Positions 365 through 40,692 of a stretch of DNA of 49,205 bases are shown piece after piece (positions within the stretch are counted from its first letter, which is position 1; each line of letters starts with the position of its first letter). The notes under the pieces are model-generated. The model was not told where the DNA came from and ran no database searches. It saw only the letters and a list, made by a program, of their open reading frames with translations. Origin of the DNA: Prosthecobacter sp. GTDB lineage: Bacteria > Verrucomicrobiota > Verrucomicrobiia > Verrucomicrobiales > Verrucomicrobiaceae. Location of the stretch: NCBI RefSeq assembly GCF_029946185.1, contig NZ_JAQSEA010000111.1, forward strand, positions 1-49,205. The letters are read 5' to 3'. Position numbers and translations under genes: made by a program.

Positions 365-3300
365 TTAGAAGCTCTTGTTGAACCGAAAATCATACAAATC
401 CAGTTGGTAGTTCTTAGACAGCGCCTTGGTGTAGTAGATCCCCAGCGAGAGATCATTCCGAATGAGCACCTGCAGGCCGATGCTCATGGTCGCCATCGAC
501 CCCAGATCAATCGGCACCGTCATCTTGTCAGCCCCCGCAGGCGCTCCGGAAAAGCCAGCACGCACATACGTGTCATTGCCATTGAGGAAATACTGATACC
601 CAAACTCCGTGTGCAGGCTGATGCGCGTGCCTGATGTCACCAGCAGCGCTTTGCGCACAGTCACGGCCGGCCTCACCCACGCGTGGGCTTCATTGTAGCC
701 CAGCAGCTCCAGGTTGGTGGCCCCTGCCCCGTTCTCAGCGGTCGCACCCGCGGAGAGCTGGGTGACGCCGAGGTCGAGCTGCGGCTTCAAGTAGAAATCT
801 TCATACACAAATTCATGCGCCATGCGCACCATCGCGGTGAGGGTCTGCATGTCGCGGTTGGCAGCGGCATTGAAGAGAGTGGCCACCTCCCCCGCACGCG
901 TGCTGTCCATGTTGTTCCAGCCATAAGATACCAGCGCGGCGAATTCGCTGCCCGCGTTTTTGTAGCGCACCATCGCGCCCACGCGCTCGCTGTTGCCGTT
1001 CGCATTCCAGCGGCCGCCGTAGCCGTTGGCGCTGTTGTCTTCAAAGGAGACCGCGAGGCCTGCGCTCCAGTGCTCGCTGATCATTTCTTCAAATCCCAGC
1101 GCAAAACCGAGCGTCTGCTGCCGCACCGTTTTGTAGTCGTCGTAGGCGCTGTGCAGCGTGTTGGAGCCGATGAAGTCAAACCAGATCGTCCGCTCCTGCA
1201 GCGAGAAGCGCGAGCTGCCGCCATTCAGCATCGTCTCGCCAAAGCGCTGCGTGGCGCGGATCTGCTCCGCCTGCTGCTCGCCATAGAAATCGGGGCCGAG
1301 CTGGCTGAGCAGTTCGCGGTACACTCCCATGTTGGGGGCATACAGCAGCGCGATGAGGGTCGCAGCCAGCGCTGGGGAGCTGCCTGCCCGTTGGATGTTG
1401 TTAAAGTACTCACCCACCTCCAGCAGATTGCGCCCCATGTTGGCGCCCGGCGGATTGAAATTGACGTCGTAGTCGAGGACCTCATCGTTCGGCGTGGGAT
1501 ACTGCAAATCGTAGGTGATGACCACCGAAGGCCGCGTCGTGAGCACCGCGCCGTCATTGGTCACTCCGCCATCCGCATGCACCAGCACTTTCTCGAAATG
1601 GCCGATGGGGATGAGCTGCGGATTCAGCAGCGCGGCATCAATGCGCCCCGCGAGCTTCGCGGTGCCGGTCATGTAAATCTGGTCGATGGCATTCGTGCCG
1701 AAATCGAGCTCGGCAAAGGTCACCCCGCTGCTGCTCTGCGTGAAGCTGCCCGTCATGTCCGTGTGCTGTGCGAAGTTCGTGTCACCAGGGAGCAAGATGC
1801 CGTTGTTGATGAGCTGATTGCCGGCCGCACCGAGGAAGAACTGCGGTCCCAGCACGAGAAGCGCGTCGGCGGCATTGCTGAACTGATTCGCACCCGTGCC
1901 GAAGTCCGCATTCCCCACGAAGGTGCCGTTGTTCTGGAAATGGTCGTCGCCGTTGTCGCCGCGGAAACTCCAGCCTGTCAGTTCATCCAGACCGGCGATG
2001 GTGCCGTTGTTGGTGAAAAGATTATTGCCCCCGCCGGAAAAGCGCACGCCGGTGCCGCCCGTGCCAAAGAAGATCGACTTCGTGGCCGCGAGATCCACGT
2101 TAATGTCGCCCTGCGTGCCGCTGGACTGCGACTGCGCCAGCAGCCCCGTGCCGGAGGCTCCCGTGGCGTAGATATTGCCGCCCATGTGAAAGGTGATGGC
2201 CCCGGAGGTGACCGCCATGGCCAGATCAAGCCCGAAGTTGCCGCCGCCGCCACCGATGGACTGCGCCAGGATGCCGTAGGAACGATAGCCCTTGGTTTCG
2301 ATGTCGCCGACCTGAATCACACTCACCTTTTCCCCATAGCCGCCATCTCCCGGTGCGCCGCCCACAGCCAGACTGAAGCCAAGGTTTTTGTTCTCCTTGT
2401 TCATGTTGTCGGAGTCCGCGTAGGTCCTGGCCAGATTGAAGTTTCCATTGCCGCCACCGCCGCCGATGGACTGCGCCAGGATGCCATCGCTGTAGTCTTT
2501 CACGGTGCCGATGGCGCTGTAATTGCTGACCGTTACGACACCGCCATTGCCCGCTTGGCCACCAGCACCGCCGATGGCGAAGACGGCGGCAAATCCGGCG
2601 TCGGTGTTGTCCTTGCCGGCACTGGAAAAACCAGCGTTGAAATTCATCCCCGCCCCCGCCGCCAATGCTGGAGGCTTGAATGCCATGCGCACTGTAGCCG
2701 GTCGTGGTGATCGCTTGGGTAGCCGCCGAGGACAGCCCCCGGGTGATGGTGACTGCACCCGCGTGCCCCCTCCCGATCCTGTGCCACCCACGCCCACTGA
2801 AATGGGGGAACTGCTCTTCGCATACACCGCCGTCACGTTCATCCCGCCGGTGCCGCCACCGCCACCGATGCTCTCGCCGATGATGCCACGCGCGTAGTCC
2901 CCATCCGTCTGCACCCGGCCGTTTTGCGTGATGCTCACATCTCCGGCATCCGCACCGAAACCGCCGTTGCCACCGACACCCGCGACGATGGTCACGTCCG
3001 TTTTGCCGCCCGAGGCGGTGGAGTCCGCGAAGTTGAACTGGCTGGTGATATTGATGCCGCCGTTGCCGCCGCCCCCGGCGATGCTTTGGGCCATGATGCC
3101 GTGAATCCAGTCACCCGAGGTGATGGCATCGCCGACATGCGTCACCACCACATCGCCACTGCTGGCACCAGCTCCGCCAAACCCACCGATCCCGAGGGAG
3201 ATGGAGGGCGTGGAGTTGTCCTTGTTGATGGCGATGCCGCCCGTCACATTGAGGCCGCCATTGCCGCCACCGCCGCCGATGGACTGCGCCAGAATGCCTG

Positions 3301-6300
3301 CCGCGCTGAGGGTCTTGGACGCCAGTGCCGAGGCATACACATTCGCCGTGACCGTCGCCGTGACATCTTTGGCCACGCCCGCGTTTCCACCAAAACCGCC
3401 CACGCCCACATTGATCGCAGAATCCGAAGTGATCCCGCCGCTCACATTGAGTCCGCCATTGCCACCACCACCGCCAACGGACTGCGCCAGGATGGCGGAA
3501 TTCCCCGCGCCATAGCCCGTGATGCTGCCAGCCCCTGTGACGAGCACGTACACCTTGTCAGCGCTGCCGCCGCTGCCGCCACCGCCGCCAATCGACTGCG
3601 CCAAAATGCCCGTGGAGTCATTGCCCTGCGTGATGATCAGCCCGGTCACATCCACCGCGACATTCCCAGCATTGCCCGCGCCGCCGCCAAAGCCGCCTAG
3701 GCCAACTCCGATGGCCGCGCTGCTCTTGCCCGTGATGTTCACCGCCCCCGTGACATTGATCCCGCCCATGCCGCCGCCGCCGACTGACTGCGCCACCACC
3801 GCGGAGGAGTGATCTCCCGTGGTGCCAATCTGAGTGTAAGTGGCCGTGGTTTTCACCGTGCTGGACACATTGCCCGCATTGCCGCCATCGCCGCCGAAGC
3901 CGCCAATGCCGATGCCCAGCGCGCCGACGCCATCCTTGGTGGCATTGATCACGCCAGTGACATTGATCCCGCCATTGCCGCCACCACTGCCAAGACTCTG
4001 CGCCATGACGCCCGCCGAATAACTGCCCGTCGTCACCACCCCGCCGGTGAAGGTGCTGGTCACCGCCTTGCCATTGCCACCGTCACTACCAAGCCCACCG
4101 ATGCCGATCGCCAGCGCGTCGCTGCCTTCCTTGGAAGCCGTGACCGCGCCCGACACATTGAGTCCGCCATTACCACCACCCCCAAGGGATTGGAACAACA
4201 CGCCAACCGAGTGACAGCCCTGAGTTTGGAGGTAACCCGCAACCGTGTTGGTGACGTCGGCCGCGTCACCGCCTTTGCCGCCGGACCCGCCCAAACCAAA
4301 GGCCAGCGCACCCGCTCCAGTCTTCGCCATGGAGATGGCGCCACTGACACTCAGGCCGCCCATACCGCCACCACCGCCGAGCGATTGGGCGGCAACACCG
4401 AAGCTATCTTGCTGAATAGTGTACACGTTTCCGGTCAAAGTGTTGGTGACGCTGCCCGCGTTTCCGCCGTCTCCACCCGACCCACCGAGCCCCACACTAA
4501 TGGCTCCGCTGCCGCTGCCAGCGAACGACATGGCACCCACGATGGAGATTCCCCCATTGCCACCACGGCCGCCGAGCGATTGCGCCAGCAATCCGCCCGA
4601 ACCTGCCTGCTCTGTATTGATGTTTCCCGTTACGTTAGATGTAACGATTTTCTCGTTTTCTCTTGTGCCGCCATTGCCACCCAAACTAACTCCAATAGCC
4701 CCACTGGTAGTGCTAGCCCCTGACAGTGGCGCAGCAACTTCAAAACCACCGCTACCACCATCACCACCAATGGACTGCGCGATGATACTGGTCGATTTTT
4801 TGCCTTTTGTTGTCACGTTATTGGTCGTAGTCAGTGTAACGCTTAAAGCGTCACCTCCACCTGACCCGGAACCACCCAAACCGACGCTCACAGCGCCACT
4901 GGTTTCACCGGAACCGGAGGCCGCGATGCTGACATCGAACCCACCCATACCACCGCCACCGCCGACGGATTGCGCCACGATGCCAGCGGAGTTTTCGAGC
5001 AGGGTGTCCACATTGCCGGTGATGCGCGCTGTTACGCCACCCTCGTTACCATCGCCTGCACCTGCACCGCCGAGGCCTACGCTGATGGCTGCCGTGCCGC
5101 TGCCTGCGCCGGAGCCGCTGGCGGAGACGTTGTACCCTCCGCTGCCGCCACCGCCTCCAATGGCCTGAGCCACAATGGCTGCTGAATTTTTGCCCGTGGT
5201 GCTGACGTCATTGCTCACCGTTAGATTGACCGCTCCCGCATTCGCCCCGGTCCCGCCGCTGCCACCGAGGCCTACGGTAATCACCCACGGCAACCCCGGC
5301 AAAGAGACCGAAGGAGCCCGCGCTGCCGCCACTGCCGCCGACGGACTGCGCGTGGATGCCGAGGGAGTCTTCCCCCAGGGTGATGATGCTGCCGCCGTTG
5401 GTCACGGTGACTTTGCCACCTGCGCCGCCGCCATTTTCGGCAAGCCCGGCATTGCCGCCCACGGAGACCATGCCGAGCGTGGAGCCGCCATCGCCGCCAT
5501 CGCCGCCGCCGCCGATGGACTGGGCGAAGATGGCGTCCGCGTATAACCCCTGTGTCTGGATGATGCCTGTGCTGAGGTTTGACACGGTAACGGTTGAAGC
5601 GCTACCTCTATTGGAACCGGCGCCGCCTATAGAGACCAGACCACTTGCAGAGCCGCCCGTACCGCCGCCGCCGCCGGTGCTCTGGGCAAAGATGCCGCGT
5701 GATTTATTCCCCACGGTCAGAATGGTTCCGTCATTGGAAACCAGAACGGTGCCGCCGTTACCGCCATTGTCTCCGGAGCCGCTGAGCGAGACCAGCAGAT
5801 TTCCCGAAATACCGGCCGAGCCGCCCGAGCCGCCGATGCTCTGCGCCAGAATGCCATGGGCCTGAATGCCGATGGTTGAGATACTGCCGCCGGCTGCGTT
5901 GGTGATGCTGACCTCACCTCCGCTGCCGCCATAGCCGCCTGACCCACTGGTGCCAACGAGTCCCTAGGTGGAGCCGCCGCTGCCGCCATTCTGGCTAACG
6001 CTTAGACCGTAAATACCGATGGCCCCGTCTCCGGTGATGGAGACTGATCCATTTTTCATTACTGTAACGCTGCCGCCATTGCTGGAATGACCGCCCGTGC
6101 CCCCACCGGGTGCGGCGAAACCGCCGCCACCATTGCCTGCCTGACCGCCACGGCTGTAAGCAAAGATACCGTAATGTTGTCGCCGCTGGTGGCCACGGTG
6201 TTGCCCATGCCGACGGTCACGGATGCAGCGCCGCCCGAGCCGCCATTGCCCCCGTCCCCCCCAGATGTAGAGGTAGGAGTCCCCACCATTGCCGCCACGT

Positions 6301-31116: not shown

Positions 31117-34100
31117 TTATGCTTGAGGGTTAGAGTGCTTTTCTAACCATTCGTAGAGGAGTGGGACGACGAGGAGGGTGAGGAAGGTGGAGGTGATTAT
31201 GCCGCCGATGACGACGGTGGCGATGGGGCGCTGGACTTCGGCTCCGGCTCCGGTGGCGAGGGCCATGGGGACGAAGCCGAGGCTGGCGACTAATGCGGTC
31301 ATGAGCTTGGGGCGAAGGCGTGTGAGGGTGCCGGTGACGACGGCGGAACGGAGTTCGTGGCCTTCGCGACGGAGCTGATTGATGTAGCTGATGAGCATGA
31401 TACCGTTGAGGACGGCGATGCCGCTGAGGGCGATGAAGCCGACGGCGGCGGAGATGGTGAAGGGCATGCCGCGCAGGTGCAGGGCGAAGATGCCGCCGGT
31501 GACGGCGAGGGGGACGCAGAGGAAGATGAGGGCGGCCTGCTTGAAGGAACCGAAGCTGAGGTAGATGAGGACGAGGATGAGCCCGAGGGCGAGGGGAACG
31601 ACGATGGTAAGGCGGGCTTTGGCTTCCTGGAGGTTCTTAAACTGGCCGCCGAATTCGAAGTAGTAGCCGGGGGGGAAGACGACTTTCTCGCGGATCATGC
31701 GGGTGGCTTCTTCGACGAAGCCTTCGGTATCGCGACCGCGTACGTTGATGAGGACGCTGACGCGGCGCTGGGTGTCTTCACGGGTGATCTGGTTGACGCG
31801 GTCTTCGAGTTTGACCTTGGCGATCTGCTTGAGGGCGAGCATGCCGCCGCCTTCGGTGCGAAGGGGGAGGCGCTCCATGGTGGTGAGATCGGCGCGCTGG
31901 TCTTCGGCGAGGCGGACGAGGATGGGGGTTCGGCGATTGCCCTGAATGAGGGTGCCGACTTCATCGCCTGCGAGGGCGGTTTCGATGAGGCGGTACAAGT
32001 CTTCGCTGTGGACGTTGTATTTGATCATGGCCTCGCGGTCGGGCTGGATCTCGATCATGGGGACTTTGCCGATGGCGTCGAATTCGGTCTCGCTGCCGCC
32101 GGGGAGGCTGTTCAATACGGCGGTGATTTCTCCGGCGAGGCGCTCGAGGTCGTCGTAGTTTTCGCCGAAGATTTTGCAGAGGAGGTCGGCGCGTGCTCCG
32201 GCCATGATCTCGTTGAAGCGCATCTGGATGGGCTGGGAGACGAGGATGTTTTGGCCGGGGACCTGGGCGAGGAGGCGGGTGCGCATGAGCTCGCCGAGGT
32301 CGGCTTTGGTGATGGGCGCGCCGTTTACTTTTCGCCAGGTGTCGGAGGATTTGAGCATGACGTAGGTGTCGGCGACATTGGGGCCCATGGGATCTGTGGC
32401 GACTTCGGCGGTGCCGATGCGGGAGAAGACATCGCGGACTTCGGGGAACTCGCGGCGGAGGGCGGCTTCGCTCTGCTTTTGAAGCTGGACGGAGGAGGTG
32501 AGGCTGGCGCTGGCGCTGCGGATGAACTGGAAGGTGAAGTCGCCTTCATCGAGCTGCGGGATGAATTCGGCGCCGAGGCGTGAGAAGAGGACGAGGCTCC
32601 AGGCGAAGAGGGCGAAGAGAGGCATGACGATGAGCCAGCGGTGGCGCAGGCCGAAGGCGAGGAGGGGGGCGTAGAGTCTCTTGGTGGCGGTGACGATGAT
32701 GCTGTCCTTTTCCTGAATTTTCCCGCCGAGGAGGAGGGAGCAGAGGACGGGCATGAGGGTGAGGGCGAGGACGAGCGATGCGCCGAGGGCGAGCATGACG
32801 ACCATGGCCATGGGCTGAAACATTTTTCCTTCGATGCCCTGGAGCGCGAGGATGGGGACGTACACGACGGTGATGATGAGGACGCCGAAGAACATGGGGC
32901 TGGCGACTTCTTTGGCGGACTTGAGCACTTCGTCTGCGCGCTCAGTGGCGGTGAGGCGGCGACCGAGGGCGTGCTGTCGCTCGCCGAGATGACGGACGAT
33001 GTTTTCGACCATGACGACGGCTCCGTCGATGATGAGGCCGAAGTCGATGGCGCCGAGGGACATGAGGTTTCCGGAGACGCCGAGGCGGACCATGCCGATC
33101 ATGGCGAGGAGCATGGAGAGGGGGATGACGAGGGCGACGATGAAGGCGGCGCGGGCATTGCCAAGGAGGAGAAAGAGGACGATGACAACGAGGAGCGCGC
33201 CTTCGCTGAGATTTTTCTCCACGGTGTGGATGGTGCGGTTCACCAGATCGCTGCGGTCATAGACGGTGCGGATGACGAGGCCGGGGGGGAGCTTGCGCTG
33301 GATGTCTTCCAAGCTTTCGCGCACGGCATTGGCGACGAGGCGGGCGTTTTCTCCGGCGAGCATGAGGGCGGCGCCGACGAGGGCTTCGTCTCCCTCATGG
33401 GTGCTGGCTCCGGTGCGGAAGGCGGAGCCGATGCCGACGCTGGCGACTTCTTGAAGCAGGATGGGTTTGACGCCGCCGCCGAACTTGAGCGGGAGGCGCT
33501 GGATCTCTTCGACGCTGCTGACGCGGCCGGGGGCGCGGACGATGAGCTGTTCGCCACCGATCTCGACAAAACCGCCGCCGGCATTGCGGGTGCCTTCTTC
33601 GACTTTGCTGGCGAGTTCATCGAGGGACATGCCTGCGGCGACGAGGCGTGCGGGGTCTGGCTGGATGACGATCTGCTTGTGATAGCCGCCGCTGGTATTG
33701 ACTTCGGCGACGCCGGGGGTGCGACGGAGGAGGGGCTTGACCTGGTATTCGTGGATGGTGCGGAGCTCCATGAGCTGGGCTTCGCGGGTCTTGGGCTTGG
33801 AGGGGGCGTCTGCGGTGTAGTCGAGGGTGTAGTAGAAGATTTCGCCGAGGCCGGTGGCGATGGGGGCGAGGCGGGGTGTGAGGCCGGGGGGGAGCTCTTC
33901 GAGGACGCCCTGGAGGCGCTCGGTGACGAGCTGGCGGGTGCGGTAGATGTCCACGCCGTCTTCGAAGATCATGGTGATCTGGGAGAGGCCGAACTTGGAG
34001 AGGGAGCGGAGCTCGACCATGCCGGGGAGGCCGGCCATGTCTGTCTCGATGAGGAAGGAGACGAGCTTTTCGACTTCTTCGGGGGCGAGCGCGGGGACGG

Positions 34101-34254
34101 CGGTGTTGATCTGGACCTGAGGATTGGTGATGTCCGGGACGGCATCCATGGGGAGGCGCAGGGCGGACCAGGCGCCGAGGGCGGCGAGGACGAGGGTGCC
34201 GAGGAGGACGGCGGCGCGCTGGCGCATGGCCTGGGCGAGGAGGAGGGTCAGCAT
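31117..34254 (-). CDS. czcA: CzcA-type heavy-metal efflux RND pump
   Basis: Inner-membrane proton/cation antiporter. About 1045 residues from ATG 34254 (MLTLLLAQAMRQRAAVLLG); an extension to 34314 adds an unlikely Pro-rich leader. The architecture is 12 membrane helices and two large periplasmic loops. The proton-relay helix reads GAIDFGLIIDGAVVMVEN, which fits the DFG-xxx-DGA-xx-VEN signature of CzcA-like (Zn/Co/Ni/Cd) rather than CusA-like (Cu/Ag) pumps. Other family segments are SQPIQMRFNEIMAGARADLL and FIPQLDEGDF. It is 230 bp downstream of the adaptor-like lipoprotein on the same strand. A gene for an outer-membrane channel is not in the window. Confidence 0.95.
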   Translation of the reverse strand: MLTLLLAQAMRQRAAVLLGTLVLAALGAWSALRLPMDAVPDITNPQVQINTAVPALAPEEVEKLVSFLIETDMAGLPGMVELRSLSKFGLSQITMIFEDGVDIYRTRQLVTERLQGVLEELPPGLTPRLAPIATGLGEIFYYTLDYTADAPSKPKTREAQLMELRTIHEYQVKPLLRRTPGVAEVNTSGGYHKQIVIQPDPARLVAAGMSLDELASKVEEGTRNAGGGFVEIGGEQLIVRAPGRVSSVEEIQRLPLKFGGGVKPILLQEVASVGIGSAFRTGASTHEGDEALVGAALMLAGENARLVANAVRESLEDIQRKLPPGLVIRTVYDRSDLVNRTIHTVEKNLSEGALLVVIVLFLLLGNARAAFIVALVIPLSMLLAMIGMVRLGVSGNLMSLGAIDFGLIIDGAVVMVENIVRHLGERQHALGRRLTATERADEVLKSAKEVASPMFFGVLIITVVYVPILALQGIEGKMFQPMAMVVMLALGASLVLALTLMPVLCSLLLGGKIQEKDSIIVTATKRLYAPLLAFGLRHRWLIVMPLFALFAWSLVLFSRLGAEFIPQLDEGDFTFQFIRSASASLTSSVQLQKQSEAALRREFPEVRDVFSRIGTAEVATDPMGPNVADTYVMLKSSDTWRKVNGAPITKADLGELMRTRLLAQVPGQNILVSQPIQMRFNEIMAGARADLLCKIFGENYDDLERLAGEITAVLNSLPGGSETEFDAIGKVPMIEIQPDREAMIKYNVHSEDLYRLIETALAGDEVGTLIQGNRRTPILVRLAEDQRADLTTMERLPLRTEGGGMLALKQIAKVKLEDRVNQITREDTQRRVSVLINVRGRDTEGFVEEATRMIREKVVFPPGYYFEFGGQFKNLQEAKARLTIVVPLALGLILVLIYLSFGSFKQAALIFLCVPLAVTGGIFALHLRGMPFTISAAVGFIALSGIAVLNGIMLISYINQLRREGHELRSAVVTGTLTRLRPKLMTALVASLGFVPMALATGAGAEVQRPIATVVIGGIITSTFLTLLVVPLLYEWLEKHSNPQA

Positions 34255-34343
34255 GGGGCGGGGCGACTGGATGACATGGGGTGGTGGGAAATACCTTGGG
34301 ATGGTGGGGGACACCTTGAAATGGTAGCTTGGGGTGGCCGGAA

Positions 34344-34363
34344 CCGGCTAAAGCCGGGACTAC
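34344..34363 (-). repeat. REP-like hairpin with GTAG tetranucleotide
   Basis: CCGGCT-AA-AGCCGG (34344-34357), then GA and CTAC (34360-34363). On the minus strand this is GTAG, two bases, hairpin. It matches 46188-46207 in layout, but the arms differ (CCGGCT versus GAGCT) with both sides changed together. It lies in the intergenic region 34255-34483 of the efflux operon and might modulate expression between adaptor and pump. Confidence 0.65.
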
Positions 34364-34431
34364 AATACTCGGAGGGGTGGGGCTCGGGGGTGCTGGATGT
34401 TCGCGGGGGTGGATGTTTGGCGGGGTGGTGG

Positions 34432-34466
34432 GATCGAGGACGAGTTCGAGTAGGAGGACGAGGACG
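34432..34466. repeat. Second GGACGA-type repeat copy
   Basis: A direct repeat of 31030-31066: the same GATCGAGGACGAGTTCGAG leader followed by GTAGGAGGACGAGGACGA-type units. It lies 18 bp outside the adaptor gene's stop codon. Together the copies bracket the pump gene. Confidence 0.65.
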
Positions 34467-34483
34467 ATTGGGGGGAAGCGAGC

Positions 34484-35272
34484 TCAGTGGCCGCAGGTGC
34501 AGGATTTGCCGCCGCGGAGGACTTGGAGTTCGGCGAGCCAGAGTGACATGACGGGGGTGGTGACGATCTCGTCTCCGGCGTAGAGGCCATCGGTGATCTC
34601 GACGAGGTCTTCGTTCATGGCTCCGGTTTTGACGGGGGTGCGGAGGTAGGAGGGGCCGTTGAGGGTGTAGGCGAAGGTGCCTTCGGCGGTTTTGAGCAGG
34701 GCGCTGCGGGGGATGGCGGTGACGGCTTCGCCGGGGGCGGCGCGAAAGGTCATGAGGAGGCGGGTGCCGACGGGTAGCGGTGCGGCGGCAGTGACGGTGA
34801 GGGCGAAATCGCCGAGGGTGACGTGGGCGGTTTGCTCGATGCGTGCGATGGTGCCGGTGGATGACTTGGCGTCGTCGCTTTCGGCGTGCAGGGTGACTTG
34901 CTGGCCCGACTTGATCCATGCGGCCTGCGCGGCGGTGAGCCAGCCGGTGGCTTGCATGGAGGTGGCTGCATCTGAGGTGAGTGCGGTGGGTTGGAGGTCT
35001 TGTGAGGGGACGATCTGGAGCGAGACGACGAACAGGGTGGGAACGGGTGCTTCGGTGACTTCGGTGGTCTTGAGGCCGATGGCTTGCTTCATCTCTTCGG
35101 TGAGGGTTACCCCCTGCCCTGCCTTGAACTGCGCGCCGTTTTCGGGGCCGTGTTCGCTCTCGTGATCGTGTTCTTCTTGGGCTTCGTGGGCGGTAGCGTG
35201 GGGTTTATCGGTGCAGGAGCCGAGGGAGAGGAGGAAGGCTGCGAGGGTGATCCGTGGAATGAGAGTTTTCAT
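34484..35272 (-). CDS. His-rich lipoprotein, RND membrane-fusion-like
   Basis: About 262 residues from ATG 35272, chosen for its lipoprotein signal (ITLAAFLLSLGSC, Cys20). The mature N-terminus is His/Glu-rich (ATAHEAQEEHDHESEHG), probably metal-binding. The body resembles the beta-barrel and membrane-proximal parts of CzcB/CusB adaptors (IGLKTTEVTEAPVP, EAVTAIPRSALLKTAEGTFA, VEITDGLYAGDEIVTTPVM). The long alpha-hairpin is essentially absent. It ends CTCGH, another likely metal ligand set. It is upstream of czcA in the same operon. At 262 residues it is shorter than typical adaptors (about 350-500). Confidence 0.85.
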   Translation of the reverse strand: MKTLIPRITLAAFLLSLGSCTDKPHATAHEAQEEHDHESEHGPENGAQFKAGQGVTLTEEMKQAIGLKTTEVTEAPVPTLFVVSLQIVPSQDLQPTALTSDAATSMQATGWLTAAQAAWIKSGQQVTLHAESDDAKSSTGTIARIEQTAHVTLGDFALTVTAAAPLPVGTRLLMTFRAAPGEAVTAIPRSALLKTAEGTFAYTLNGPSYLRTPVKTGAMNEDLVEITDGLYAGDEIVTTPVMSLWLAELQVLRGGKSCTCGH

Positions 35273-35421
35273 GGGAAGATGTGAAGTGGGTAAGTTTTGA
35301 GAAGCTGCCGCATTCGAAGGGATTGTGGTGGGCGGAGTCTGACGGATACGGTGATCCTGTCTTTGGGGCGCATGAGAGCCCAAGCCTTGTTCGTGGCTGT
35401 TTTTTGCTATGGTCGCTCTCC

Positions 35422-36445: not shown

Positions 36446-38518
36446 TTACTGCGGAACGGGGATGGCTTTGGGGACGTAGTCGTCTTGAGGGACGGGGATA
36501 GCCGCAGGGACGCCGCCGGGGGCGCTGGTGGTTTGGTAGGGGTCTCTGCCGATGACGACGCTGGAGATGGGGGTGACGGGGATGACGCGGGCTTCGCCTT
36601 CGACGAAGAGGGCGCGTGGGGGAGCGGCGAGGAGTTGGGAAGCGGGGGCTTTGCCGTCCCAGCCTTTGGGCTTGCCCTCGGTGACCATGGCGAAAACGGC
36701 GGCCCACAGGGGAAGCGCGGCGGTGGAGGCGGTGGCTTGGGGGCTGATGGGGATGTCTTTGTCATGCCCGATCCAGACGAGGCAGGTGCGTTCGCGGTCG
36801 GAGCCGATGAACCATGCGTCGGTGCGGTCGTAGGTGATGCCGCCGTAGCCGGCGATGCTTTTGTTGGCGAGGCCGTGGGCCTTGAGGGGCTTGCGGTATT
36901 CGGGGCGCTCCATGCCGGTGATGAGGGTGTCGCGCACATGGGTGACGGCGGCGGGGCTGAAAATTTCGGTACTGCGAATGGTGGGGGTGAGGAGGAGGTG
37001 CGGGCTGGCGCACTGGCGGCCGTCATTGGCGATGGCGGTGAAGGCGCGGGCGATCTCGATAAGACGCAGGGAGCTCTGGCCGAGGGTGAATGCGGCTTCG
37101 GCCCGCAAAGGATTGGTGAAACCGCAGCGATTGATGGCGGCACGGAGGGGTTCGAGTCCGACCTGATAGCCGAGTCGGACGGTGGCGGCGGTGCGGCCTT
37201 CAAGCAGGGCCTGCTTGGGGGCGATGCTGCCGCCAGTGTAAGCTACGGGATCGCCTTCGGCTCCCCATTCACCAAGGGTGCCGACGAGGCCGCCGATCAT
37301 GGCCTGTTTGTTGTCCAGGGGGCCGTCGATCTGGGGGGCGTCTGTGACGTCGGGCTGGGCCGTGAGTGCGGCGGCGTAAACGAGGGGGAGAAAGGCGGTG
37401 CCGACGGGGCGGATACCGTCGAGGGCGCGATTGAAGGGGCTGGTGGTGAAGTCGCGGCCGCCCTGCATGGCGAGGATGGCGCCGGAGTTGTTGTCGAGGA
37501 CGATGACGGCTCCCTGGAGGGCTTTGTCTTTGGCACCGACCGTGTCGAGGTGTTTGCGGACGAGGGTGTCGAGCTTATGCTGCCAGTCGAGACGCAGCGA
37601 GATGCTCATCTCGGGCGGGGTGCCGGGCTTGTAGCCGAGGCTCTGAAATTCGGCGCGTGCGGCGGCGAGCATGTAGCCGGTGCGGACGCGGTTTTTGTCA
37701 TAGCTGATGGTGAGGGGCTGAGCGCGGGCGGTGGTGGCTTCGGCCTCGGTGATGCTGCCGGTCTCGGCCATGCGCTGGAGCGTGAGATCACGTTTTTGTT
37801 TGGCGAGTTTGGGCTGGGTGATGGGGGAGAAGGCGACGGGAGCCTTGATGATTCCGGCGAGGGTCGCGGACTCGATGAGGGAGATGTCGCGGACGTCTTT
37901 GCCAAAGTAGCAGCGTGCGGCGGCACCGACGCCGCTGCAGCCGGTGCCGAGATAGATGCGATTGAGGTAATGGGTGAGGATCTGCTCCTTGGTGCATTCG
38001 CGCTCGATGCGCATGGCTAGGAAGATTTCGATGATCTTGCGCTCGTAGTTGCGGCCCTGGAGGCCGAAGGCATTGCGGGCGAGCTGCTGGGTGATGGTGC
38101 TGCCGCCCTGACGGATGCCTTTGGAGGTGAAGTTTTTCACGGCGGCACGGCTGAGTCCGATGATGTCGAAACCGGGATGGGAGAAGAAGCGGGCATCTTC
38201 GGTGGCGATGATGGCCTGGACGAGGGTGATGGGGACTCCATTGAGGGTGACGAGCTCGCGCTCAATGTCGCTGGCGCTGCCGATGGGCTCGCCTTTGGCA
38301 CCGAGGAAGAGGGTTTCATTCTGGCCGCGAGTGAGGGCGGCCATGTCATAGGTGGCGGCGAGGCTGGAGTAGTGGTTCCAGACAAAGCCGAAGGCGATGA
38401 GGCCGATAAGACCAAGGATCACACAGGAGCCGCTGATGAAACGGAACCAGCGCGGGAGGCGGTGGTAGCGAGCGCGGAGGCTGGAGAGGAAGGTGCGAAC
38501 TGCTGAGAGTGGAGACAT
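36446..38518 (-). CDS. Class A PBP with active GT51 and inactivated transpeptidase domain
   Basis: The protein has 690 residues. A membrane anchor at about 28-47 precedes a complete GT51 glycosyltransferase: ATEDARFFSHPGFD (catalytic Glu107), RQGGSTITQQLARNAFG, ERKIIEIFLAMRIE, KEQILTHYLNRIYLG and KRDLTLQRM. It should polymerise glycan strands from lipid II. The transpeptidase fold is present but all three motifs are lost: SxxK reads TAFL (RPVGTAFLPLVY), SxN reads GRT (EGRTAATVRLG) and KTG reads YGG (AGYGGITYDRTDAWFIG). The Pro-rich C-terminus ends in a repeated KAIPVPQ-like motif. It is 104 bp downstream of PBP2 on the same strand. It should be functionally monofunctional, with crosslinking supplied by another PBP. 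Confidence 0.93.
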   Translation of the reverse strand: MSPLSAVRTFLSSLRARYHRLPRWFRFISGSCVILGLIGLIAFGFVWNHYSSLAATYDMAALTRGQNETLFLGAKGEPIGSASDIERELVTLNGVPITLVQAIIATEDARFFSHPGFDIIGLSRAAVKNFTSKGIRQGGSTITQQLARNAFGLQGRNYERKIIEIFLAMRIERECTKEQILTHYLNRIYLGTGCSGVGAAARCYFGKDVRDISLIESATLAGIIKAPVAFSPITQPKLAKQKRDLTLQRMAETGSITEAEATTARAQPLTISYDKNRVRTGYMLAAARAEFQSLGYKPGTPPEMSISLRLDWQHKLDTLVRKHLDTVGAKDKALQGAVIVLDNNSGAILAMQGGRDFTTSPFNRALDGIRPVGTAFLPLVYAAALTAQPDVTDAPQIDGPLDNKQAMIGGLVGTLGEWGAEGDPVAYTGGSIAPKQALLEGRTAATVRLGYQVGLEPLRAAINRCGFTNPLRAEAAFTLGQSSLRLIEIARAFTAIANDGRQCASPHLLLTPTIRSTEIFSPAAVTHVRDTLITGMERPEYRKPLKAHGLANKSIAGYGGITYDRTDAWFIGSDRERTCLVWIGHDKDIPISPQATASTAALPLWAAVFAMVTEGKPKGWDGKAPASQLLAAPPRALFVEGEARVIPVTPISSVVIGRDPYQTTSAPGGVPAAIPVPQDDYVPKAIPVPQ

Positions 38519-38622
38519 GAGTGAGGCTTTTATCTTTCTCGTCCTCCCACTCTGCCTCCTACTCTCGGGGCAAGTCAGGGTGCTGAGAAAGGGAGGAAGA
38601 GCAGGAGGAAGATGAAGTTTGA

Positions 38623-40692
38623 TTAGCGGAAGAGGCGCTGGAAGAAGCCGCCGATGCCGGGTTGTTCGCGGTACTGAGCGGGGGCGCCGCCGCCGTAGTA
38701 GCCGGGTGGAGGCTGACTGAAGTCGGGGGTCAGTGGATCGTTTTCTTCCGGGACGGTGTTCGGCTCATACTTCACATCGTGGGCAGTGGGCCTGTCTTCA
38801 ATGTCGTGCAGGACTTTGGCGATGATGGGTGCGGCGGTGCCGCCGCCGGAGAGGCCGCTTTCGCCGGCATTCCCCTCCACCATGACGGCAAAGGCCAGCG
38901 GGGGATTGGTGTCCACAAATCCGGCGAACCAGACGACGTTGGCCTTGGCTCCGCGCAGCACCCACTGGGCGGTGCCGGTCTTGCCAAAGACGGCGACTTT
39001 TTTCAGGCGCACGGCTTTGCCAGTGCCCCGTGAATGATTGACGACACCAAACATGCCGCTACGAACGGTTTCGAGGTCCATCTGGCTGACGGGCATGAGG
39101 GCATCACGGCACGGGATGCTGACGTCTCCGAGCTGACCGGTCTGTGACTGCGTGTGGGTGACAAGGCGCGGGCGGGGGCGGCAGGAGCCGTTGGCGAGGG
39201 TGGCCATGACCATGGCCATCTGCAGCGGGGAGGTCTCGGTGACGCCCTGGCCGATGGAGAGATTGGCGAGGTCGTGATTGGAGGGGGCGTTTTTCGGCAG
39301 ATTTCCGGCGGCCGTTTTTAGCGGCAGCACTGGAGAACTGCCAAGACCAAACTCATGCGCCATGTAGAGAATGGGGCGGTCACGCATGACCATGGCGGAC
39401 TGGTAGAAGTAGGTGTTGCAGGAGCGGATGAGCGCGGCGCGCGCATTGAACCAGCCGTGGTCGTCTTTGGACCAGTTGTTGAATTCGCGGCCGTCGATCA
39501 TGAGGGAGGGACCGCACTCGAACTCCATCTGGGCATCGACGAAGCCGGAGCGGAGTCCGGCGAGGACGACGATGGGCTTGAAGATGGAGCCCGGTGGGTA
39601 GGTGCCGAGCAGGGCGCGGTCAAACAGCGGGCCGTCGATGTCCTGCGTGAGGGTGGTGAAATCGGCGAAGGAGATGCCGCCGGCGAAGGCATTGGGATCG
39701 TAGTGCGGGAGGCTGGCCATGGCGCGGATGTCTCCGGTGAAGGCGTCAACGATGACCATGGCGCAGCGGTGCTTGGACTGCGCGAGGGCGGTCTCGGCGA
39801 GGCGCTGGGTTTCGAGATTGAGGGTGGTGACGACATCGCGCCCGGCGGAGGGCGGAGTGAAAACCTGCTGGTAGGCGACGCTGCCAGCGTCTGCCATCAT
39901 GAGGCAAAGCGTGCCGTCTGTCCCGGTGAGAGGTTTATTAAAGGCGGCCTCAAGGCCTGCTGCGCCCTTCGTGCGCTGCCAGAGGGGCTCGCTGCGGAGA
40001 ATGGGGCCGGACGGCGGTGCGCCGTCAGAGGAGACGTAGCCGAGAATGTGTGCGGCCATGCCGCTCTGCGGGTAGTGCCGCACGTATTCCGTTCGCAGGC
40101 TGGCATGGGCGTGCTTTTGCGGATCGATGACGAGATCCTGCGTGAAGGCATCACTGACAGTCACCGGCAGCTCGCGGCGGCTTTCATAATGGCGTTTCAA
40201 CGTTTCAGCGTCCGGCATGCGTGCTACGGGGAGATCGGCCTTCGTAGCATCAATCTCCTGCTGGAGCCAAGTTGTGTAGGCTTCCAGCGTGCTGCGCTTC
40301 TCTGCGGGCACGGTAAACTGCAAACGACGCACGAGGGAGTTTTGCGCAAGCGGCCGTCCTTTGCGGTCAAGGATCTGCCCACGCGGCGCAGGGATGGCAA
40401 AGTAGAAGGGCTTGACGTCGGTGCGTGAGCCGGTGCCGGGGACGAAGGCGGCGGGAGGCTCTGCGCTGTGCGCGGGAGCAGCAGTCGCAGGCTTTGGGGT
40501 TTGAGCAGGAGCGGCGGCTGGCAGCTCTGCGCTAAATGTAGGAACTGCCGCGAGGATGAGGCCAAAGGCGGCGAGAGCACCGAGGCTTATTCGTCCTGCG
40601 GAACTGCCAGGGGGGGATGTAGGGGCAGTGCGCACTGGCCATGAGAAACGGCTGGGCGCGGGAGGGTGGGCGGACGGCGGAGAGGAAATCAC
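38623..40692 (-). CDS. Class B penicillin-binding protein (PBP2-like transpeptidase)
   Basis: D,D-transpeptidase of elongation-type peptidoglycan synthesis. The protein has 689 residues. After a Pro/Ser-rich cytoplasmic leader, the membrane or signal segment is RISLGALAAFGLILAAVPTF. A Pro/Ala linker leads to the dimerisation domain (RGQILDRKGRPLAQNSLVRR). All catalytic motifs are intact: SxxK in PPGSIFKPIVVLAG, SxN in SCNTYFY and KTG in FGKTGTAQW. A Tyr/Gly-rich tail ends GIGGFFQRLFR. It is upstream of the class A protein with the dead transpeptidase. The start could be later than 40692. The name mrdA is not assigned because no rodA lies beside it. Confidence 0.93.
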   Translation of the reverse strand: MISSPPSAHPPAPSRFSWPVRTAPTSPPGSSAGRISLGALAAFGLILAAVPTFSAELPAAAPAQTPKPATAAPAHSAEPPAAFVPGTGSRTDVKPFYFAIPAPRGQILDRKGRPLAQNSLVRRLQFTVPAEKRSTLEAYTTWLQQEIDATKADLPVARMPDAETLKRHYESRRELPVTVSDAFTQDLVIDPQKHAHASLRTEYVRHYPQSGMAAHILGYVSSDGAPPSGPILRSEPLWQRTKGAAGLEAAFNKPLTGTDGTLCLMMADAGSVAYQQVFTPPSAGRDVVTTLNLETQRLAETALAQSKHRCAMVIVDAFTGDIRAMASLPHYDPNAFAGGISFADFTTLTQDIDGPLFDRALLGTYPPGSIFKPIVVLAGLRSGFVDAQMEFECGPSLMIDGREFNNWSKDDHGWFNARAALIRSCNTYFYQSAMVMRDRPILYMAHEFGLGSSPVLPLKTAAGNLPKNAPSNHDLANLSIGQGVTETSPLQMAMVMATLANGSCRPRPRLVTHTQSQTGQLGDVSIPCRDALMPVSQMDLETVRSGMFGVVNHSRGTGKAVRLKKVAVFGKTGTAQWVLRGAKANVVWFAGFVDTNPPLAFAVMVEGNAGESGLSGGGTAAPIIAKVLHDIEDRPTAHDVKYEPNTVPEENDPLTPDFSQPPPGYYGGGAPAQYREQPGIGGFFQRLFR

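Follow-up and report, generated by a model that had tools for sequence, protein, structure and literature searches.

A class A PBP without transpeptidase motifs and its neighboring PBP2 in Prosthecobacter

The window analyzed here, 49,205 nucleotides of Prosthecobacter DNA forming one contig of a draft assembly that totals 6.2 Mb, carries a class A PBP gene (P0001) that has lost all three transpeptidase motifs, next to a class B PBP2 gene (P0002). Both are located on the minus strand, the PBP2 gene first, and their open reading frames are separated by 104 nt. Sequence comparisons indicate that P0001 combines intact glycosyltransferase motifs with a motif-free pseudo-transpeptidase domain maintained by purifying selection, and that it is inherited together with an intact PBP2 as a two-gene cassette. 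We propose that the two proteins constitute a split peptidoglycan synthase, most likely docked, in which the pseudo-transpeptidase domain serves as a scaffold; the chances of this reading are put at about even. The coordinates of the relevant features are collected in Table 1.

Table 1. Features of the P0001/P0002 cassette in the window
Feature	Position	Strand	Basis
P0001, 690-aa class A PBP: GT51 polymerase whose (pseudo) transpeptidase domain is catalytically dead	36446..38518	-	ORF, Pfam, orthologue alignment
P0001 N-terminal membrane anchor, residues 28-46, mean hydropathy 2.34	38381..38437	-	hydropathy alone
P0001 GT51 domain, residues 75-249	37772..38296	-	Pfam and orthologue alignment
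P0001 pseudo-transpeptidase domain, residues about 333-625, purifying selection	36644..37522	-	Pfam, PBP1A alignment, dN/dS
P0001 SxxK position, TAFL, residues 374-377	37388..37399	-	alignment
P0001 family-marking segment LDNKQAMIGGLVGTLGEW, residues 401-418	37265..37318	-	pattern search on tree rows
P0001 SxN position, GRT, residues 441-443	37190..37198	-	alignment
P0001 KTG position, YGG, residues 558-560	36839..36847	-	alignment
P0001 cysteines C465, C503, C579	37124-37126, 37010-37012, 36782-36784	-	alignment
P0002, class B PBP2 (MrdA-like) partner, 689 aa counted from the GTG start of the ORF list	38623..40692	-	ORF, Pfam, TIGR, tree
P0002 N-terminal hydrophobic stretch, residues about 33-55	40528..40596	-	hydropathy and reading by eye
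P0002 PBP dimerization (pedestal) domain, residues 100-263	39904..40395	-	Pfam
P0002 intact SxxK, SIFK, residues 369-372	39577..39588	-	alignment
P0002 intact SxN, SCN, residues 424-426	39415..39423	-	alignment
P0002 intact KTG, residues 571-573	38974..38982	-	alignment

The GT51 half of P0001 was described as complete in an earlier note on this DNA, and this is borne out by Pfam: PF00912 is matched at 6.4e-59 over profile positions 2-177 of 178, and the GT51 motifs are present, aligned and kept among the orthologues. E107 and E164, which we take to be the catalytic positions of GT51, are invariant in 13 aligned rows. The transpeptidase fold around the lost motifs, which the same note considered to be kept, is recognizable by sequence from a PF00905 match barely over the cut-off (24.5 bits against 22.1) and from an alignment with PBP1A along the domain. 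PBP1A chains are the best solved-structure matches of P0001, and the HMMER alignments with them (printed for 4oon, 3udf and 5u2g) place TAFL, GRT and YGG under SxxK, SxN and KTG, exactly as first read. Misalignment of the motifs was ruled out, as a pattern search finds no other S..K, S.N or K[ST]G anywhere past residue 300 of P0001. An AlphaFold model of P0001 built from 11 close sequences (mean pLDDT 38, pTM 0.31) was too poor to be used.

P0001 scores 372 bits against TIGR02074 (PBP1A family), below the cut-off of 508.75, and 131 bits against TIGR02070 (MtgA/MGT), below the cut-off of 182.65. The GT51 domain, membrane anchor and transpeptidase domain are shared with the bifunctional class A PBPs (PBP1A, TIGR02074), but P0001 differs from them by the absence of SxxK, SxN and KTG and by an extra LDN...GEW segment. 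Monofunctional GT51 enzymes (MtgA/MGT) probably perform the same reaction, polymerization only, whereas P0001 keeps a constrained transpeptidase-like domain of about 290 aa. Since P0001 is still scored as PBP1A-like, below the cut-off, and still receives a transpeptidase call from Pfam, such genomes may be credited with too many bifunctional PBPs and beta-lactam targets.

The orthologue set comprises 15 sequences at >70% identity, window included, of which 13 were found in 13 of the 35 genomes of the window's genus and two are L037 and L041; duplicates of loci already counted (L036, L038-L040 and L042-L047) were removed. In named records the orthologues belong to Prosthecobacter and other Verrucomicrobia assemblies. 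The earlier note had suggested aligning orthologues to see whether the loss is conserved. It is: SxxK, SxN and KTG are all missing in 15/15, no orthologue having any of the motifs. The Lys position of SxxK is Leu, the third position of SxN is Thr and the Lys of KTG is replaced by Tyr or Phe (YGG or FGG) in every one of them; at the Ser position of SxxK, 14 have Thr and L016 has Ile. The loss persists at 71-87% identity to the window among the 12 full-length relatives aligned.

The pseudo-transpeptidase domain is kept about as tightly as the neighboring domains. Mean pairwise identity over 13 full-length rows is 0.838 for the GT domain and 0.820 for the pseudo-transpeptidase, the corresponding value for the live transpeptidase of 11 partner PBP2s being 0.819. 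Invariant columns amount to 107/175, 159/292 and 187/321, respectively. In seven chosen pairs, the Nei-Gojobori dN/dS ranges from 0.078 to 0.238 for the pseudo-transpeptidase and from 0.019 to 0.208 for the GT domain. The pseudo-transpeptidase has the higher value in four of these pairs and the GT domain in two, and one pair shows no difference. Persistence of the loss at such divergence, combined with low dN/dS values, excludes chance. A read error, a mis-assembly or a pseudogene could be suspected from two loci of the set, one orthologue being read in two frames (L017, G013) and another locus being rearranged (L018, G032), yet the probability of such an explanation is negligible. It is refuted for the window's P0001 by full-length open frames in 13/15 orthologues and by dN/dS values well below 1 in all seven pairs, and the absence of any motif in 15/15 under purifying selection shows that the loss reflects no sequencing error and no decay of the gene. 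In the rearranged locus (L018/L047), only the transpeptidase half of P0001 is left and a PBP2 remnant abuts it: at 4982-7089 of L047, PBP2 residues 81-422 are directly followed by P0001 residues 313-673. This collapsed cassette is either a real deletion or an assembly fault.

It is very improbable that the domain remains catalytic through some other residue, be it Thr374 in place of the Ser or one of the cysteines C465, C503 and C579. This possibility is suggested by the prevalence of Thr at the Ser position, by the invariance of the three cysteines in 13/13 aligned orthologues and by the existence of TxxK members in the family (L180, L184, L230), but the Thr is itself replaced in L016, and none of the 15 orthologues retains either the Lys base or the Lys of KTG. 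C465 and C503 might pair as a disulfide.

The adjacent P0002 is matched by PF00905 at 6.7e-53 and by PBP_dimer, and scores 357 bits against TIGR03423, under the cut-off of 455. It possesses the pedestal of PBP2 (MrdA) and a transpeptidase domain with SIFK, SCN and KTG in place, in agreement with the first reading, and these motifs are intact in 15/15 paired PBP2 rows, window included. In 13/15 orthologous loci, the next gene upstream, on the same strand, is a PBP2 orthologue, which in one of them (L014/L042) is cut by a contig end. The remaining two are L009/L038, where only 304 nt of contig are left upstream, too little to reveal a PBP2, and the rearranged L018/L047. Where readable, the gap between the two genes is -4 to 204 nt in 13/14 loci. 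The same cassette is present in three more distant genomes, one of the same family (G120) and two of other families (G224, G036). Comparison of the nine other window genes with 14 cassette loci (13 genomes) returned one 61% fragment (L037) and two weak matches (27-29%). Downstream of the cassette (31117-35383), the window encodes a large RND efflux-like protein and a membrane-fusion-like protein, both named by eye; a search of the 14 other loci likewise did not find them beside the cassette.

A 48-row class B tree unites the 15 paired PBP2s in a single clade (SH-aLRT 98); it is a quick tree without bootstrap where several rows, paired ones included, sit on long branches. Their branching order (G036, G224, G120, genus) is that of the P0001-partner tree. 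The distance matrices of PBP2 and partner correlate with r 0.93 over 11 cassettes, a value that shared ancestry alone would also raise. Taken as sequence evidence, these results support the view that the neighboring PBP2 is a co-inherited partner and no chance neighbor; operon partners may simply be co-regulated. N-termini of PBP2s were read by eye in P0002 (40528-40596) and in L045, L060, L061, L043, L238, L234, L122, L235 and L115. The hydrophobic N-terminus of P0002 resembles a cleavable signal peptide more than it does a long anchor. Signal-peptide-like N-termini were seen in PBP2s of the order, paired or not, and the class B proteins L068 and L069 differ in this respect.

The breadth of the loss had escaped the earlier note: P0001 belongs to a wider class A family, usually with an LDN...GEW insert, in which nearly all members placed on a tree are without Ser, Lys or both. 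In a first class A tree, the P0001 clade adjoins a large second clade. A GT51 match at 1e-20 is found in 46/103 genomes of the class; its absence from the other 57 is in line with the report of PVC superphylum bacteria without a class A PBP (PMC8406291). One genome per genus was surveyed in the 27 genera with a GT51 match, five short monofunctional matches being left out. The 66 surveyed proteins include 39 with Ser and Lys, 2 with only Lys (TxxK) and 25 without Lys (some with Ser), the latter count being soft because L147 is a truncated frame and L156, L178, L197 and L203 are poorly aligned. The LDN...GEW pattern occurs in 17 of the 66, from 15 genomes, and in none of the 39 intact ones; Ser and Lys are both gone in 15 of the 17 and Lys alone is kept in 2. 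Three members were found outside the 27 survey genomes, all in family f45: L090 and L229 are intact, and L230 has TxxK.

A more careful tree was calculated from 56 chosen rows, namely 40 of P0001's family and 16 intact class A proteins, with the motif columns removed. Support is 100/100 for the wider family and 100/98 for the paired clade. Ser, Lys or both are lost in 38/40 family rows (neither present in 34, only Lys in 3, only Ser in 1, both in 2), and the LDN...GEW pattern is present in 37/40 (missing in L082, L024 and L035) against 0/16 intact class A rows. Among the 32 rows outside the paired clade, Ser or Lys is gone in 30, KTG or KSG is kept in 29, the Asn of SxN in 23 and a full SxN in 11. 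KTG is gone in all members of the paired clade except the basal L084, a loss encountered outside it in 1/32 (L025, QTS). Within the clade, the motifs read SSFL/SKN/KSG in L084, TAFL/SKL/FSG in L082, TAFL/GKT/WGG in L081 and TAFL/GRT/YGG in the window. The dead form also occurs in genus g2 (2.2-3.5 Mb), for example as TAVL/SKI/KTG in L100 of G048. Counted by parsimony alone, the intact pair requires at least 2 changes, Ser 3 and Lys 4. These counts allow one early loss followed by a regain in f45; without regain, many separate losses are needed, and we think the latter likelier than a single loss with regain.

Several other degenerate forms were encountered. L180, L184 and L230 are class A PBPs with TxxK (TAMK, TAIK and TAFK) in which SKN and KTG are otherwise in place; they could be of interest for activity studies, with Thr at the predicted nucleophile position and the other motifs present. 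A second class A group (L188, L172, L185, L182, L171 and L178) consists of open frames of 1261-1351 aa from genomes of the class. The SxxK Lys is replaced by Gln in the first five (SLLQ, ALLQ, AVLQ), with MTG, MSG or MNG for KTG, and L178 is more degenerate. Since the LDN...GEW pattern was not found in this group, its loss is probably separate. The GT51 proteins L156/L057/L059 and L197 of family f2 (585-613 aa) end in a short degenerate transpeptidase-like tail.

No match to P0002 was detected in eight neighborhoods (10-20 kb) of wider-family members, where the commonest neighbor is a divergent gene (5/8), another gene is found in 3/8 and several in 2/8. Together with the Ser/Lys loss across the wider family, this indicates that a linked PBP2 is required neither for losing the catalytic pair nor for keeping the dead domain. 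Pairing with PBP2 as a general cause of motif loss is thereby ruled out. The earlier note had interpreted the two genes as a division of labor, the pseudo-transpeptidase possibly docking the adjacent PBP2; co-inheritance supports the PBP2 as a partner, which may or may not dock, but the pairing does not provide the general reason for the death of the domain.

The same observations leave room for P0001 acting alone as a regulated monofunctional polymerase whose pseudo-transpeptidase positions or switches the GT domain, with crosslinking by any PBP and P0002 merely co-transcribed. The wider family indeed retains the domain without the Ser/Lys pair, with no P0002 match in the eight neighborhoods read, and three intact class A PBPs (STVK, SAMK, SALK) are encoded in the same genome. 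We nevertheless judge this explanation unlikely, while granting it more weight than any other alternative considered: it leaves unexplained why the paired PBP2s form a clade of their own, found among the 48 tree rows beside P0001-type genes only, in surroundings unlike those of the window.

KTG or KSG contributes to substrate binding in active PBPs. The retention of KTG or KSG in most rows outside the paired clade, where Ser or Lys is nearly always gone, would suit a pseudo-transpeptidase that binds stem peptides non-covalently, as a sensor or anchor on the existing wall guiding the polymerase. Such a role has a rather low probability for P0001. The replacement of KTG by YGG or FGG and of the SxN Asn by Thr in 15/15 window orthologues means that the known peptide site is gone exactly there, and even outside the paired clade the Asn and the full SxN are kept only in the 23 and 11 rows given above.

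In SEDS-class B PBP pairs (RodA-PBP2, FtsW-FtsI), one protein polymerizes and the class B PBP crosslinks; gene linkage is not universal in true pairs of this type. The proposed arrangement would follow the same scheme, but its polymerase is a GT51 protein and P0002 does not look transmembrane-anchored. No match to a SEDS gene (FtsW or RodA) was found in the window or in ten cassette loci. The SEDS-PBP logic invoked in the earlier note applies by analogy only. The genome as a whole contains five transpeptidase proteins without GT51, P0002 counted, versus two SEDS matches. These proteins include another PBP2-like protein (C184), an FtsI-like protein (C234) and two further ones (C176, C145). A 1152-aa frame of the same genome (L072/L243, G000:C145) has a transpeptidase-like domain with DAFT, SCR and KTG and is another possible dead transpeptidase.

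In the split synthase that we favor, P0001 would be a membrane-anchored GT51 enzyme polymerizing glycan strands from lipid II, and its transpeptidase domain would catalyze nothing, bind no penicillin and be retained as a scaffold. The extra PBP2, P0002, would supply the crosslinking lost by P0001, acting on P0001-made strands, most likely while docked on the P0001 ectodomain. Loss of the Ser/Lys pair would already have been under way in the wider family at the origin of the pairing or earlier, and the paired lineage would afterwards have given up its KTG and SxN sites as well. On this account, the wider family lost transpeptidation either early or repeatedly, its dead domain fulfills a scaffold or binding role, and one lineage became linked to its own PBP2.

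Docking and split labor are plausible in view of systems described in two articles. Pneumococcal PBP2b and PBP2x crosslink in vitro alongside a class A PBP (PBP2A) with a transpeptidase mutated dead (PMC4632607). There, as proposed here, a class A polymerase with a dead transpeptidase is accompanied by class B crosslinking, the difference being that PBP2A is a laboratory mutant and P0001 a natural conserved state. E. coli PBP2 stimulates the GT activity of PBP1A but, unlike the pneumococcal proteins, is inactive on strands from a transpeptidase-inactive PBP1A (PMC4632607). In C. difficile, the class B PBP3 is in complex with PBP1, division does not require the transpeptidase activity of PBP1, and PBP3 promotes septum synthesis by PBP1 even when PBP3 itself lacks its catalytic serine (PMC12539705). 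A class B partner can therefore exert its effect purely through regulation. In both the E. coli and the C. difficile complexes, class A and class B proteins interact and affect each other, but the wild-type class A protein has transpeptidase activity, whereas P0001 is naturally devoid of the motifs and the genes are paired. These cases make the split plausible, but they also caution that the role of the partner may be regulatory.

The P0001/P0002 arrangement suggests that a task for which a single protein often suffices is here shared by two. A broader proposal, which we advance tentatively and hold as less probable than the split synthase itself, is that of a third natural synthase architecture, in addition to bifunctional class A PBPs and SEDS-class B pairs. 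Here the dead transpeptidase domain of a GT51 polymerase would dock a dedicated PBP2, which may itself be unanchored, and tether it to the membrane. This architecture would have evolved in a wider class A family that repeatedly gave up transpeptidation but kept the domain. Among the titles and abstract beginnings retrieved from the open-licence literature, none describes a family of class A PBPs whose transpeptidase domain is naturally dead; this is weak evidence of novelty.

The coupling of polymerization and crosslinking in class A PBPs has been probed with laboratory point mutants. Here, related organisms display the successive stages naturally: SxxK is intact in some, TxxK stands in between, and at the far end all three motifs are gone. 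In the window's clade, selection acts on the dead domain. This series points to a non-catalytic role of the transpeptidase domain, and the PBP2 cassette names a directly testable candidate partner. Elsewhere in the window, a 1655-aa frame on the minus strand (365-5332) contains glycine-rich repeats and, by eye, a C-terminus resembling an autotransporter barrel.
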